Assembly: GCA_021464245.1 (NCBI GenBank)
Contig: JADCRB010000035.1
Coordinates: 590,762-654,761, forward strand
Direction: 5' to 3'
Source: Carallia brachiata
Lineage: Eukaryota; Streptophyta; Magnoliopsida; Malpighiales; Rhizophoraceae
DNA length: 64,000 nucleotides
The translations under genes were made by a program, and so were the position numbers. Each line of letters begins with the position of its first letter. Position 1 is the first letter of the stretch. Below are positions 2,660 to 61,000 of this stretch, piece by piece. The notes under the pieces are model-generated. The model was not told the DNA's origin. It saw only the letters and a list, made by a program, of their open reading frames with translations, and made no database searches.

Positions 2660-5600
2660 AAGTTCATGAAAAGATAACTAAAAAAATTTTAAATTGTGTT
2701 GATATGCTAGAATCTCTCCTGAGAAGTTTGAAAGATCCCATAAAAAGATTGTTTGTTAGTTAAATCTAATTTTAAATTTTTAGTGTGCTAAATTATTCTA
2801 CAGAAGGTAAATTAAAATTGAGGAAAAAAAAACAGAGATCCATTACTTAAATAGAAAATCTTAAATAATTGGGGTTTTAGATGATAGATATTTAACGTGT
2901 TTTATTTTTATCAGCCTCTAAAATAATACAAGTTTAAGGATGATGAGACGAGGTATCATATATTCAATATCTAGATTCAAATTTTTTTATCAAAAAGAAC
3001 TTACTTAAAATTGACTAGTGTGCATATTAACAAAAATCATCTCGATACAAATAGGGATTTCGAATTTGAGCTTGTTTCCTTCCTAAAAAAAAGTGTTCGA
3101 GTCCCAATAAAAGTGGGGTTCATTTAAAATTCGAGCATCCACGCCATGATAATCCTATAAATTGTGATGGGCCTCTCCATCATAATGGATTAAAGTCACT
3201 TCAGGAACATGTTGCACAACATAAAGAGGAAGCCCAATAATTATATTACATTCATGGGCTGAGCACACGAGCCCAAGTACATTCTTGAACGCAGTTGCAT
3301 CCCAATAATCCAACTCCGCATTAAGAAAATGAATCAAGCATATGATGCCGACCAAAATACTTTCATTATTCATGGAATAATGTAACTCGTTAAATTCATT
3401 TGTCGACTACAGCCAAAGTATTTATCAATTTTATTATTTTATATGTGTGCAAGCAGATTGTTATGGCCGCAGTTTATAATTATTGGAAAAAGCATAAACT
3501 TAGCTGAGATGTATGGGTCGTGCCATAAATTTCATGGAATGGAAATTATATATTTGGCTGATGGGACTTCCCTCCACGCCAATAATCTTCAATTCCAATA
3601 ATTTCCTAGACCAAATATCTCTAGTCCTATTGTCAAAAAAAATATATCTCTGGTCCTTGTCCACAAGCCTGACATACAAAATGTACCAAACCTAAGTTCC
3701 TCAAGCAATGGGCCTAAAAAAAAAACAATAAAAATGGACGAAAAAATTAAAGAAAAAAATTAATGGTTTCATTTAAATAATTTTAAAATAATTACAAAAA
3801 ATTATAAACTGTTGAATAATTAAATTAAAAAATAAAAAATAAATAAATTATCAAATATTATTAATAAAATTATATAATTACTTTAAATCTAATTAATTGA
3901 AGTTATTTAGTGTCAACGTTAAAATTTAGCAGCTCCCTCATCCTCAACTACCAGTTTGCCTCTTGTCTCTCAGAAGGTCCTCGTTAGTTGTCCCTACCTC
4001 GCTTTTAAAATTGATGTAAAACTGTGTGCTTTCCAATTATAGCTATTATAGTTTCTTAGTGTCATCCTTCTATATTTAGCTAACGCTAAAAGGCGCCTGC
4101 GTTGCGCCTACCTCTCAGTTGTCCAACCACATGCAATTTCCATTGGAAAAAACATGAAAATATTCTATCAATGGGACTCAATTCATGTACTAATCAGTTC
4201 AGTGTAAAGTTTTACGTTACATAAACGAGAAATTGAATTTCATCGAAACAATAAATAAGATTTTAATCAGATAGATTTAATTAGTTGAGTTTTCTCTTTA
4301 CTATCCACCTAAATATTTGGTGCAGTTGGATTCACTTTCTGGACTCTTTTAGTGAGTTCAGTTCAGCCTAGTTACTGTGTGGTGAGCCGCAATATTTTTC
4401 AATAAAATGCATGTCACTTTTGTTTTTATTTTTGTGAAAAAAAGAAGATAGGAAATAAAATATTGTTCTTTTCTGTGGTATGTTCTATTTTTATTGGCGA
4501 GTTCATAATCTTGGTGATAGACTCTTGATTCACCAAAAATTTCTTCACAAAGTTGTAGCAAGAGTAGGTAAAAATGAAGGTTGTCGAACCTCGTTATAAA
4601 TAGCTCTTTAAATTTGCAAAGGCCAGCCGATGAAGACGTGCGTGAGCTGGGCCAAATGCAAACGAGTGGGAATCAGAAGAGCCAAGAAGCGTAGAATTTT
4701 TTGCAATAAAATGAACAAAAAACAAGTGGTTGGCACGGACAACAACAGCAAGCCTTTCAATTTTGGGTACATCATGCTTAGGTGTAAAGCTATAAATGGT
4801 CGAGACTTCTCAGGCGGAGTGGAACCCTAGTTCCTGATTGGTTGGTTCACGTGGATGACAAAAGTACAAGTATTTTTATTGGAAATATATATTAAATTTA
4901 AAAATATAACTAAATTTTTAAATACTCATATGCTATTTAATAGATTACATATTTTTTACATCTTTTTTTTTTTTTTGTCTACGTGAATAACCTTATTTTT
5001 ATTTTCAAATTTTAGGCAAGAAAAATCTCTAAATAGATATATTTTTGAGTGTACAAAGTAACTCGCGTCATGTGGCGGTGAATAGTCTGTATTCTGTATT
5101 ATCCTCCGAGGACTGATCTCGTAATTTAATTATTTCCGACGACCCCACAAAAAATAGAAAGAAAAATTGTACATTTTAGTAGTGTAAAGTAACACCGGTG
5201 GACGGTGACTGCTTTGTTGGCTTAAGCTCGATAACTGGACGGACCACACCCAATGGCTTGTAGCGGAGCGGAGCCAGAGGGGGACTTCGGTTGGACCACC
5301 ATGCTTCAGCAAAGGAAAACATGGCCAGGTTTGCAGCTTAATTGGCGGTGGACTGGTACCCAACAATTACTTTCTTTCTTTCTTCTTTCTTTCTTTCTTT
5401 TTTTTTTTTTTTTGTCAGTATATTTAGCAAACAAGCTGATGGGATTTTTTTTTCCAGAAAACGATTTTATTTTTTATGTGAGAAAATAGACAATTTCTAG
5501 ATTTGTACATGTCATCTTTGTGTAGGGACCATGTTAATTTTTTCTGTATTATTTCAATTTTATCAGACGTCCGTGAAGCGACTCAGGAAAATGATTTTAT

Positions 5601-54300: not shown

Positions 54301-56544
54301 GAAATATGGAGGCGAGACTCACCGGCCGTTATTAACGCCGTCCACCGTTAACCCCACCCCTCTCTCTCCGCCTCCTCCTCCTGGTTGGATTTGGAAATTA
54401 AAATCCAACCCCCCCATTCCTTTTCCCTTTTTTTTTAATTTAATTTTATTTTATTTATTCTTTTTTTATCCTTCCAAGGCCTTTTTGAATTCACTCCTCA
54501 CCCATATCGCCCCTGGAGTTTGACCATAATTACGAATCGTGCCCTTGTTGCTAGTGAATTTACTAGAATGGGCCTCGACCCAGAGGAGGACGGAGCGCAG
54601 ATGGGGGGCAAGGGAAGGCTTTTGGCTATGGGGATGAGGGGTGAATTCGGAATTTTATTGGCTAAGTCGTTTTTGTTTGCGTGCATGTCACTTACACGGA
54701 AGAATCATGCTCTTCCGGCTCTGACGGACTGTCGATCTGATGATGATGATGAGGGAGTGGGACCCGCAAATTGCCACGGGAACACATGACCGGAGCGCTC
54801 TGGATTCAACGGGGTGCGCTTTCTTGGTTTGGAATTTGGATGTGATAAGCGACGAGAAAAGTTGGCAATTTTTCGTTAATCGTGAGCGTTTGGGGGATAT
54901 TTTAGGACTCCAAAAAAATGGAGAAAGAGAATTGAAAGCGTCGCTTCGTCACCTACTCAAAATAATTAGCCAATCTCATGAAATTAAAAGTGTTAAAATT
55001 TCATTGACTTGATGAATTCATCTTAATCATTTTTAAAATATGCTATTTAAACTCGATTTTAAAAAATTTAATTTAAAATGACTTAAATATAAAAATAACT
55101 CTAAAATTTGTGATGATACTCAAATTTAACTGGATAATTCACGTGATCCAAAATTTTTTTTTAAGAGAAAAAAATAAAATAAAAAAAATTATAACATATT
55201 TTATATTACAAAAAGTATAAATTCTATTATTTTTAGTATAAATTTTAATTATAAATTTTTTTAGAATATTTTGAGATTTTTATAAAATTTTGAATTTTAT
55301 TTTGAGTTTTTAAATTTTTTTAAAATAAACTTCTTGAATTATTTTATATTCTTTAATTTTCTTTGACTTTCAAGAATTTTTAGCAAATTTTTAGAATTTT
55401 TTAAATTTTTAAATTTTTTTATAAAAAATATCGTATTATCATTTTGAGAGCATGTCCAACCCATAGGTTAACTTCAACCTAACTTCAAACCCGAAACGAC
55501 CTAATTCAAAATTATCCAAAAATAACATGACTCATAAATAATCTGACTGGAAGTAATTCAAACCCAAAGCAACCTAATTCAAACCCAACTCAATAAGTCA
55601 TTCTGATACCTCTACATAAAATCTAAAATAATAAAATATGGATCGATAAAATTATATTACCAAAATCTGATTTGCTGACTTTGTGATTTGAATTTGGCAC
55701 AACAAGTCCTATTTTTACCAAGACCAAATGATTTCCACCAGTGCATTAAACCTGTTTATCTCAACCACCGAGTGAGCAGTTGGAACGGTAAAGTTATTCG
55801 TTGGAGTTAACACTCGACAAAGTTAAAGTTTTTAACACTATAGAGTGAGTTAAACGTATATTTAATTTTGTATAATTTTAAAATTAATTAGTGATCCTTA
55901 TTAAATATTAAAAAGTATGATATTCTATGAATTCAGTATAGCAGCCTAAGTTAACGCAATTTTTTTATTGGTTTTTTGAGACAATTACTTCTACTTTCTC
56001 GTTTTTAAATAAAAAAAAAAAAAAAACCTGTTTATCCCAACATTTATGATGGAGCTCAAGTGGCACTGTGGCAGATAGGAAGTCGAAAATTGGAGCCAAT
56101 TTGGAAACGTGATAAAAATCACGTAGTGTGTTTTGTTTATCTTGGATTGACCCTCAACAATAATTCATGTTGCGTTCGATAACTTTATGTTTATGAATAA
56201 TATTTAAAAATATTACTAATTTTGTATATAGTATTAAATATAATATTAATTTTATGTGAAATAATAAATATAACATTAATTTTAAAAAATAATAATTTAT
56301 TTTTTATAAATTTTTTTAACAAATTTCTTATATCATGATATTCTCATAAATGAAATATGTCTGTCTTAAAATGTTTATGAGAATCAGTATGTTTTGATAA
56401 TATAACAATTATAAATGTTAGTATTTAGTAACACATATAATTAGCACGTTATCAAGACAATAAATGTTATTTAATAAATATCACAGTCTGTTAAATTTGT
56501 TAAAAGAATTTAAAAAAAATAAACTATTACCTCTTTAAAGTTAT
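54301..56544. other. Intergenic region upstream of the helicase gene
   Basis: Bases 54500-54900 are GC-richer than the surroundings and open on the plus strand (54520-54789), but no domain is visible. Beyond 55000 the sequence is AT-rich with scattered short repeats. No gene is supported. Confidence 0.45.
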
Positions 56545-58060
56545 TGTTAGATTTGTTACTCAATAAAATTGGTAAATTTTTTAAATATAAACATAAATTT
56601 CATCTATAATTTTTATTTTTTTGATAATTTTATCCAAATATTTTTTTATTTAAAATCCGCTATTGACATTTTCTTCGTCATTTTTTTTACTTTTTTTTTC
56701 GTTAATCAACGGTTAAGTGTAATATATAACGATCTAGTAACCAACATTTCGTCCACCTCATATGACATATCAGCATTAGTTGATGATGTGGTAATTTATT
56801 TCTTTTATTTTTCAGAAATTATAATTTTATTAATAAAAAATAATTTTTCTAACAAAAAAATAAGAGAAAATCAAAAGCTACCTCACTCCTTCCCCTCTGA
56901 TTTCATATTTTCATATTTCCTTTACATTCTCTCCATTTTTATCTGGGTTTCGATCAATGAAGAGTCGACTATTGGTAGTTGGATCGCTATGCGGTTGTTT
57001 CGCGTTTCAGTTATCGTCAAATGTTGCACCAAAAAAAGGAGTTTTTTCCAGCGTGGGCCAATGTTGTGGAGGTTGTTTCATAGATTCAATTTAAGGTCTG
57101 GTTTCATTTCTACTTCATTCGCTTCCAGTGGGGGCATATTTCTCGACCCCGCCTCGTCTTCTTATTTTGTTAATGTCATTTTTTCTACACTTTCTTTGAA
57201 TAGTGATTTCCGGCAAGCAACAAACTAACCTGGGCGGCCGAGTTTCCGGCGAGCGAAACGGGTCAGAATCCAACCCGCTTCAACTCATTCCGCCATCTCT
57301 CCACCTTAACCTCACCGGTCCTCTTTGGGCCACCCATAGCAACAATGTTCTCAATCTCACATCCAAACAATTGCTTCCCCACCACGTGCCTCTCTACGTT
57401 GTCCACATTGAATCCGTCCCCAAGAGCATCAAACAATGCACTGTAATAATGCAAGGCCTCCGCGAACCTGGCTAAGAAACTAACCCCATGACTCAGATCT
57501 TGTTCGACGAGTTTTTTGGAAATGGGTTTTGAGTTTTGGGGGATTTGGACAAGAAAAATCTGAGAATTCTATGAGTTCGATTTCGAAAGCATCCACTTGA
57601 TTTCAAAAGCATCCATCTGAAAAATGGAGAGATTGTGCAAGAAATATGAAATCAGAGGAAATGAACGCAGGAACAGACTTTTGATTTTCTCATTTTCTTT
57701 TTTTTTTTTCTTTTTATTTTTTTAATTTTAATTTTTTAATGAAAATATTCTCTTAAAAACAAGAAAAAAAAAAAAAAGGGTAAATGGACGTGTCATCAAT
57801 TAATGTTGACATGGCATATATGAGGTTGAGAGTGTGTTGCTAACGTTGGAATATAAGTAAATTGATGTGTTCTTGATTAAGTTATCACGTGTTATAATTA
57901 ATAATTAATTAGCAAAAAATGATGAAAAAGGTTGACAGTAAAATGTAGACTGTGAATTCAAAAAAAATGAAATTAAAAAAAAATTAAAATAATTGGTAAA
58001 ATCTATATTTATACTTTTTTTTACGTTAACTCTTATTTTTGTTAAACGCTAATTGTTATA
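56545..58060. mobile_element. Pack-MULE-like element with long inverted arms and a captured gene fragment
   Basis: Two arms of about 400 bases face each other. CACCTCATATGACATATCAG near 56755 matches the inverse of the block at 57800-57826. AGAGAAAATCAAAAG near 56863 and CCTCTGATTTCATATTT near 56894 match the inverse of blocks at 57676-57692 and 57643-57659. The outermost similarity, near ATTGTTA, is weak, so the ends are approximate and no target duplication is assigned. The interior (about 56946-57607) contains the GRAS fragment. No transposase is present. Confidence 0.65.
57205..57520 (-). pseudogene. C-terminal fragment of a GRAS transcription factor
   Basis: The minus strand reads KLVEQDLSHGVSFLARFAEA, then LHYYSALFDALGDGF, VERHVVGKQLFGCEIENIV, and GGPKRTGEVKVERW ending in ELKRVGF. 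These are the PFYRE and early SAW regions of GRAS proteins, nuclear regulators of plant development. A TGA stop at 57263-57265 interrupts the frame. Beyond it PVSLAGNSAAQ continues for a short way and then homology ends. There is no upstream GRAS sequence and no start. The piece is therefore a broken copy held between transposon-like arms. Which GRAS subfamily it came from is uncertain. Confidence 0.85.
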
Positions 58061-61000
58061 ACAATACCAAACAACAATTGATTACAAAATCACCTAAAAG
58101 ATATTTAAACAAAACGCCTAATATTTGATTAAAAAAAACAAAACACCAAATATAATCATATCTAAATTAGAAAAACTCATTTCTCAACACTGCTTGCAAA
58201 AACATTTCTTTTCTCCCAAGAGATTGGAAAGCTTAAATCAATTTACAATTGTGCAACACTGGAACTCATTAGGTTTTAGCAAAAGAAAGATAGTGTTAAC
58301 CAATGCGCATCGTCATCCATTTTTGGTACATTAAGTTTGCATTTGGACGGAGAGGATCGTGAGTGAAAGAGGTGGGAAAAAATCAGATAAAAAATTTTCT
58401 TCGCTTGGAAAAGAATGGGAAAGAAAATGAAACAAAATTCAAGATAATTGTGAACCCTACGGAGGTAATTTCACCAATTTGAGAAGAATGGATGAGTTCA
58501 GGGTTCTGATGGCAATTCTCGTTTCTAAACAATATTAAGCACATGAATGTAATTTTAGTATTTCCAAACTCTTTTTTAAGTCAACTAATATTCAAAATTT
58601 TAAATAAAAATAACATTTTTTTGATCAGAAATAAAAATAACATTGTCAATCCTTTTTTATTCTCTTATACTTTTGCACTCGAAGAAAATTTAGAAAATAA
58701 TTTTCAATCACAGGAAAAAAAAAATAAATGCACACATTTTTACTTTTTAATAAAAAATTTATGATCACAACTTAAACTGGTAATTTTCATGTCTCTTGTT
58801 TGGTAGAAAAAAAACGAAAAAAAAATCAAACTAATCGAGCCGGGCCGGTTCGATTTTTGGGGCGTTAATTAACCACGCGCATCGTAACTCGTAAATGACG
58901 TTCCATCAAAAAAAAGACGCAATTTACGAGATTGCCACTGGAACTAGAAATGGATTTTCTGTTGGCGCGCACGCGCCACTGCAGAACGTGGAGGAATGGC
59001 GGAAAGAAAACTTTTTTTATTTTTGTTCACAGCTGGGCAGGAAAAATCCATGTACGGCTGCCCTGCTGGCCTTTTCTTTTTATCACTCACGTCGATTCGA
59101 ATCACATGTCATTAACTTTGTCCGACCTGCATTTACGCATAAGTGCTCACGTTTATGATTCAAGTTTCTGGATTTAACCCAAAAAAAAGTATTTTCTTAA
59201 ACGAAAAAAAGTCTAGTTATTTGCTCCAAAATTTAGATTTTTATAAAGAGTAATATTATGTGATTTTAAATAAGTTATAATAAATAGTTATATAATTTTA
59301 TTTAATAGCTTTAACAGTTAATTTGATTTTTGTTTTTATATAAATTTAATTATTTAATAATTTGAATTATTTTAAATTATTTTAAAATTATTTAAATAAA
59401 ATTAATAAAATTTTCTTATAAAAGGTACATTGAGAAAATGAATTTTTAGGCTTTCAGGTGAATGATTGCGGCAGGAAAGATGAAAAAGTAAGTCGTGTCA
59501 AATCAGGAAAAAGATTAGTCATTTGGCACTAAGTTTGGATCTATAGAAAATTGATCTTTTTAGAAATTAATATTTAATTTATTCTTTATGTTTAAAAATT
59601 AATTTTTTTATTATGCATAAAGTATGAAAATAAGAATAATATTTTATAAATTTATTAAAAAAATTAAAGTGATTATATCACACAATAAATTAAATAGCTA
59701 TATTAAAATTACAAAGGAAGTAAACTGCATAGTACCCAAGACCTCTCACAATGGACTGCACTATTACGCCAAATTCATAGAAACAGCAACTTTAAGGTAC
59801 TCATTAAAAGTTATTAGCCTTTATTATAACTGTGTAGAGTCATAGAGGATGTTTGTGTTAACTTTTTAAATAATATATTTATATTTTAATTTTAAAAAAT
59901 AAGTAAATAGACGTTTAATAAATTTTGTTATCTTACTGTTTGATTTTACTTATTTTTTATATGACTATGAAAAAACAGCTGATTAAAAAATATTTTAAAA
60001 TTACTTTTTGTTACTTTTCACTTTTTAATGTTAATAATAATTTATATAGACTAAATTACTCTCAAAAAATATTTATAAAGCTTTATTTATTTTTTATTTG
60101 TCACATAAATTAGATTTGTTAATTGTTACTCTATTTTTTAAATATTTATATAAATATAATATTTTTATTTTTTTAATAATTCTTAAATAATATTTTTTAC
60201 TTCAAAATTTTGTTAATATCGACACTTTAAAAAATATCTCAACTATTTTTTTTTTACTTTCATGTGAATATTAATAATTTTTTAAAAAAGTTAAAAATTA
60301 AGTGAGAAAATTCTTTATACTATGTATAGAATATTCATTCTAAAAATAAAAAAAGTATACAAATAAAAAACTAATTTGTTAAATATCTAAATCATTTATT
60401 TAATTATTCAACAGTACCAGTAAGTAAAAAATTAATCAAACACTTTAATTACTTCTTAACAATCAACAACATGAAACAACAATCAGCAAAAAATAATCAA
60501 CAATAACCATTAATAATAGCAAAGAACAACAATAATATCGAACAGATAAACTAAATTGACCCTTAATTTCTCTGAATTCGTTAACAATATTTGGCCACTA
60601 AATCACAGTAATTAATAATATAAAATGGAATTTTAAGCATATCATATTAGCCCAGATAAGTGAAAAGAAAATGTGTGGCCACAAAATTATTCTCATAAGG
60701 AAACGTCACGTTAGTATTGATTACAATTAACTGAGGTTAACGTCGTTGATTAGCATAGATCGTCGTTGACCAATGTTGATAGTTGTTGCCTTACGTTGAT
60801 TGGTATTGATGACCAAATTCCATCCATTTGTTTATTAAATTGATTAAAATCGGAAAGGAGATGAATGAAATGGACTGAAAATATTTAATTATTTTGTGGA
60901 ACGAGATGAACAAATTTGGCATTCAAAACCAATTGCCATTCGGGTGTCGTCTATTCTTGCTAAAAACGACAAAAGGTTGGACAATTGTCGGATTTTGATT

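Follow-up and report, generated by a model that had tools for sequence, protein, structure and literature searches.

The locus and its features

The stretch of Carallia brachiata DNA analysed here (the window) is 64,000 nucleotides long and corresponds to C96:590762-654761 in a searched genome of 337.5 Mb and 164 contigs. At 56584-58015, two long arms in opposite orientation enclose a span of 678 bp, and 674 of these 678 bases can be assigned, by local comparison over 56300-58300, to three loci elsewhere in the genome (Table 1). The order of the pieces is BTB, carrier, GRAS, BTB, an A-[C-B]-A arrangement whose sources lie unlinked on C58, C89 and C95.

A 225-aa open frame at 56551-57228 (+) was considered and rejected as a gene: it spans arm and captured pieces, and its sole Pfam match, to DctM, has an E value of 0.0085, under the cut-off. 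Elsewhere in the window, a U6 snRNA-like sequence lies at 5480-5582 on the minus strand (Rfam RF00026, 67.9 bits), the sole Rfam match at gathering scores, and ARAGORN finds no tRNA.

Table 1. Features of the element and its left neighbour, and the cargo of the related element L090; for captured pieces the strand is the sense strand
Feature	Position or source	Strand	Basis or remark
Adjoining the left arm, foldback MITE of another family with GGTTAATATAT-like termini (by eye)	56222..56583		Eight other copies aligned
Left terminal inverted repeat (arm)	56584..56940	+	Gapped self-alignment, genome relatives; outer end by eye from L090 termini, +/- few bases
Fragment of BTB/beta-propeller gene (At2g24240-like), within the BTB-coding region; frameshifted, stop-containing	56941..57087	-	87% to C58:13521496-13521641 (L004 2151-2296)
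Fragment, probable 5' region of mitochondrial carrier gene, sense opposite to the other pieces	57084..57209	+	85% to C89:249251-249379 (L005 1485-1613)
Junction filler, 4 bp, matched by neither neighbour	57210..57213		Local comparison
Fragment, C-terminal part of presumably SCL23-like GRAS gene, one in-frame TGA	57214..57509	-	C95 and C93 matches; GRAS domain
Another piece of this BTB locus, source upstream of the open reading frame	57507..57618	-	87.5% ungapped to C58:13520846-13520957 (L004 1501-1612)
Right terminal inverted repeat (arm)	57619..58015	-	Self-alignment, relatives, L090 termini
L090 cargo, first piece	54 bp of C131:1582456-1582509		HVSL-family locus
L090 cargo, middle	265 bp matching C113:2486795-2487072 and C128:4497014-4497287		LigB-family
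L090 cargo, last piece	137 bp of C131:1582634-1582770		Same HVSL locus

The inverted arms

The arms are real and diverged. Aligned in inverted orientation, 56300-57240 and 57480-58300 reach a score of 212, against 83 in direct orientation and against a mean of 72 and a maximum of 103 for 100 dinucleotide-shuffled pairs. Under this lenient scoring the alignment overruns the arms, pairing 56304-56962 with 57596-58248; under a stricter one the arms span 56583-56940 and 57620-58016, the shuffle control pertaining to the lenient scoring only. Base 57619 sits between the last BTB base (57618) and the strict start of the right arm (57620). The identity of the arms is 77% (252 of 326 aligned letters, 413 columns with gaps, 56593-56940 against 57619-58009), compared with an average of 66% and a maximum of 71% in 50 mono-shuffles. 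By score and by identity the arms thus stand above background, in agreement with the original prediction, which had placed two diverged arms of opposite orientation around a GRAS segment.

The captured pieces

The GRAS piece aligns without gaps to C95:79366-79661 (89%) and C93:671289-671584 (82%), where intact GRAS open reading frames of 498 and 459 aa are found; we take the piece and its parents to be SCL23-like. The minus-strand open reading frame at 57263-57568 matches the Pfam GRAS domain (E 1.7e-19), with SCARECROW as its best PDB match (E 5.7e-28), and the single in-frame TGA of the piece lies near the C-terminal end. The segment had been described as truncated, stop-containing and C-terminal, with a parent gene to be sought elsewhere in the genome, and all of this is borne out. 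That the segment is left over from a longer GRAS gene at this site, running past the arms, is rejected: similarity to both paralogs ends at 57214 and 57509.

The GRAS segment is one of several captured pieces. A genome search with 57100-57620 returns the query itself and four other places. The parent open reading frame on C58 carries PF02214 (BTB) and PF25279 (beta-propeller), and the two BTB pieces are collinear in this parent, 538 bp apart. The open reading frame that follows the C89 source in L005 carries Mito_carr (PF00153); taking source and frame to belong to one gene, as we infer, the source probably corresponds to the 5' region of a Mito_carr gene. Similarity to each parent falls off immediately outside the borders of the pieces. 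Neighbours overlap by 4 bp at the BTB/carrier junction (57084-57087) and by 3 bp at the GRAS/BTB junction (57507-57509), lengths given without a chance test, and the carrier/GRAS junction holds the 4-bp filler.

Divergence of the GRAS sequences amounts to 10.8% of sites between element and C95, 17.9% between element and C93 and 11.1% between C95 and C93. Since the element is closer to C95, the piece was probably copied after the C95/C93 duplication, in a comparison without an outgroup. The element branch carries 12 silent and 15 replacement changes, one of the latter a stop; on the parent branches, replacements make up 0 of 5 changes (C95) and 5 of 28 (C93). Neutral simulation of 25 changes yields 74% replacement (range 56-92%), so that the observed 15 of 27 (0.56) lies at the low edge of the neutral range and would leave room for a brief earlier constraint on the piece. 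In the BTB coding piece the reading frame is shifted and broken by stops; of the changes found only in the element, 1 falls at the first codon position, 6 at the second and 3 at the third. Judged from these changes, the cargo is no functional protein-coding gene and appears to be decaying as noncoding DNA.

In a rival reading the locus would be functional: transcribed across the arms, it would give rise to a hairpin or an antisense transcript and to small RNAs restraining the SCL23-like GRAS genes. The predicted fold joins the arms in 209 of 470 pairs (without a shuffle control), perfect 21-mers connect the element to the GRAS genes on C95 (13) and C93 (7), and silencing by siRNAs from captured genes is reported in maize (PMC13317346). 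However, every perfect GRAS 21-mer falls within one 33-nt block, 57293-57325, and the decay of the cargo is close to that of neutral DNA; such a regulatory role is highly improbable. Perfect 21-mers to the other sources number 7 for the carrier locus and 3 for the BTB gene. As a decayed copy, the GRAS fragment could be mistaken for a GRAS gene in annotation or small-RNA mapping of this plant.

Relatives of the arms

Searched against the genome, the left side returns at least 48 places and the right side at least 18, among them the window, the loci that supplied the cargo and the family of the adjoining MITE. Identity between the left arm and its relatives is only 67-77%, over stretches of about 100-315 bp. 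Of 27 relatives taken up, 14 are near-palindromic, their inverted repeats spanning 392-465 bp, another 7 are longer or incomplete (579-1038 bp) and the remainder are short or undefined. The 14 have little or no room for cargo. Two relatives of ~900 bp, L034 311-1212 and L035 957-1837, have arms of ~290 bp.

Boundaries usable for a search for direct repeats are available in 22 relatives (L036, L044, L055, L058 and L060 are left out of the 27). Exact 9-bp direct repeats flank the termini in seven of the 22: L026, L028, L030, L037, L040, L062 and L065. Mismatched pairings of left and right ends give such repeats in 2 of 462 cases, both of them between L037 and L062, which have one target site in common and of which one may be a duplicate of the other; the repeat of L040 is a run of A. 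Five of the seven are clean independent cases, and 15 of the 22 relatives show no such repeat. The termini read [GC][GA][TC]AA at both ends in 13 of 22 relatives, a pattern picked after earlier inspection of the relatives and used in the control as well. Exact 9-bp duplications, as seen in these arm relatives, are the hallmark of Mutator elements. MULE transposase domains are abundant genome-wide (150 scored of 501 candidates), counted by domain alone and without link to the arms.

Ends of the window copy

The tips of the window copy resemble those of L090 (GTATAAATA...), a likeness by which the ends are placed near 56584 and 58015; the GGYAAA-like tips of the relatives behind the 9-bp result differ from them. 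The motif GGTAAA at 56571 was rejected as the left terminus, as this stretch aligns with the neighbouring foldback MITE, a family with many copies in the genome. The Pack-MULE criterion given in PMC3310237 is a target duplication of 9-11 bp with up to 2 mismatches. The window copy shows no clean duplication: the best candidate at the assigned ends, AATTTTTTA / TTTTTTTTA, agrees at 7 of 9 positions and lies in a T-rich run, with the left end abutting the MITE. No target duplication emerges beyond the MITE, where 8-of-9 matches occur at about the chance rate (3 seen, 1.3 expected).

The right flank, 58016-58030, resembles the missing tip of the left-side MITE. This resemblance is suggestive only: compared with eight MITE tips, 0.75% to 39% of 2000 random 31-mers score as well, depending on the copy. 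Joined together, the flanks suggest that the element may have inserted into this MITE at its 3' tip.

The class of the element

The stretch at 56584-58015 is very probably a non-autonomous Mutator-like element of ~1.43 kb with terminal inverted repeats of ~360-400 bp, that is, a Pack-MULE. Its interior is accounted for by three host loci and a transposase domain is absent from the 7 open reading frames scanned, so the element appears to have no transposase of its own. The Pack-MULE reading of the original prediction is upheld by captured pieces from unlinked loci, short arm relatives and 9-bp duplications among these relatives. That reading overlooked the BTB and carrier pieces and their nesting, and the cargo is not the single GRAS segment that it described. 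In those respects that could be tested and decided, the class appears to hold on sequence grounds; the element is ordinary in kind, of an already-known type, and its cargo assembly is unusually legible.

Target duplications are 8 bp long in hAT elements and 3 bp long in CACTA and Harbinger elements. That the cargo carrier is instead a Pack-TYPE element of such another superfamily is improbable. The window copy, with no clean duplication of its own, leaves room for it, as does gene capture outside the MULEs, which is described in PMC8903248. On the other hand, the exact duplications at the termini of seven of the 22 relatives are 9 bp long, and arms of hundreds of bases are the form that, according to PMC3310237, distinguishes MULEs. 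Pack-TYPE and Pack-CACTA elements are alike in holding captured genes within inverted termini, in some cases from more than one locus (PMC8903248); the present element differs in having arm relatives with 9-bp duplications and termini hundreds of bases long. Compared with the Pack-MULEs of rice, tomato and Arabidopsis, the present Pack-MULE has arms only 77% alike, a nested A-[C-B]-A cargo and no clean duplication of its own.

Nested cargo in related elements

Another element with captured genes and related arms, L090, was picked for the distance of about 1.2 kb between its arms; it lies at about C58:12217386-12218575 (L090 1787-2976) and has an A-B-A cargo (Table 1). Its sources belong to the HVSL family (PF09749, on C131) and to LigB (PF02900, in the C128 paralog); the C113 open reading frame itself has no Pfam match. 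Directly before the first piece, 34 bp match the C131 source stretch in inverted orientation. The first junction holds 4 unassigned bases and at the second the sources have 7 bp in common, ACGATTT. A partly rearranged second copy of L090, with the order kept, is located near C78:472523-473158. On C113, an arm-like stretch (L096 436-519) lies near the LigB-type source and matches L090 2857-2935 at 72% over 87 columns.

In a further element, L045 1163-2200 on C25, one source locus (C2, with a paralog on C133), which may be genic, stands either side of an unmatched middle; the interior is low-copy. L045 has a 72% copy at C3:789138-789676. Low-copy interiors are thus traced in three arm-family elements and the A-B-A form appears in two of them, the window element and L090; the window element was the given starting point, which makes L090 the sole independent case. 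Whether capture in this arm family is habitually nested, with a first gene copied and the interior then reopened and patched, by template switching, with sequence from other genes so that bookends are left, is a tentative idea with the balance somewhat against it.

Assembly of the cargo

One way to arrive at the A-[C-B]-A cargo comprises two steps. The element would first have taken up at least ~796 bp of the BTB gene, from its 5' part; then some 538 bp of this sequence would have been lost or skipped and replaced by the carrier and GRAS patches, made by repair synthesis that switched templates at microhomologies of 3-4 bp. As an alternative start, both broken ends of a gap may have invaded the BTB gene. 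Two-step copying with gap repair and a single round of double-end invasion would give the same product, and sequence cannot separate them. An intermediate copy with a continuous BTB piece was not found in the genome search, in which very common words were skipped. Any mobility of the element would depend on a MULE transposase from elsewhere in the genome.

Gap repair with template switching agrees with published models for elements of this kind (PMC8277862, PMC4858842). The route by which MULEs come by unlinked gene fragments is a matter of continuing debate, the candidates being gap filling, stem-loop conversion, and fork stalling with template switching (PMC8277862, PMC4858842). Pack-TIRs of animals, ascribed to gap filling by template switching, are similar in their junction microhomology of a few bases: 1-36 bp, with a median of 2, at one or more breakpoints in 67.6% of elements (PMC8277862). 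The element described here differs from them as a plant element with three source loci, one of which bookends the others.

The timing of capture is a separate matter. A resident MULE may have broken in its middle and had the gap filled from the three genes in place, with the composite never transposing later, an account that is compatible with the Pack-MULE explanation and differs in timing only. The composite core has a full-length match only to itself, no second copy being found in the genome search with very common words skipped, and gap filling without transposition is favoured for single-copy Pack-TIR elements in animals (PMC8277862). Against this stands L090, which has the same form and a rearranged second copy, indicating that such a composite has multiplied at least once in the arm family, by transposition or other duplication. 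Capture after insertion is rather unlikely, and for the window copy the timing of capture relative to insertion cannot be told.

For the Pack-MULE at 56584-58015, bookends from one gene together with short junction microhomologies suggest that repair synthesis left its template and returned to it collinearly. With a second case involving other genes in related arms, this return to the template becomes testable by counting A-B-A elements across genomes. If the nested habit is general, such elements would record the order of repair steps.
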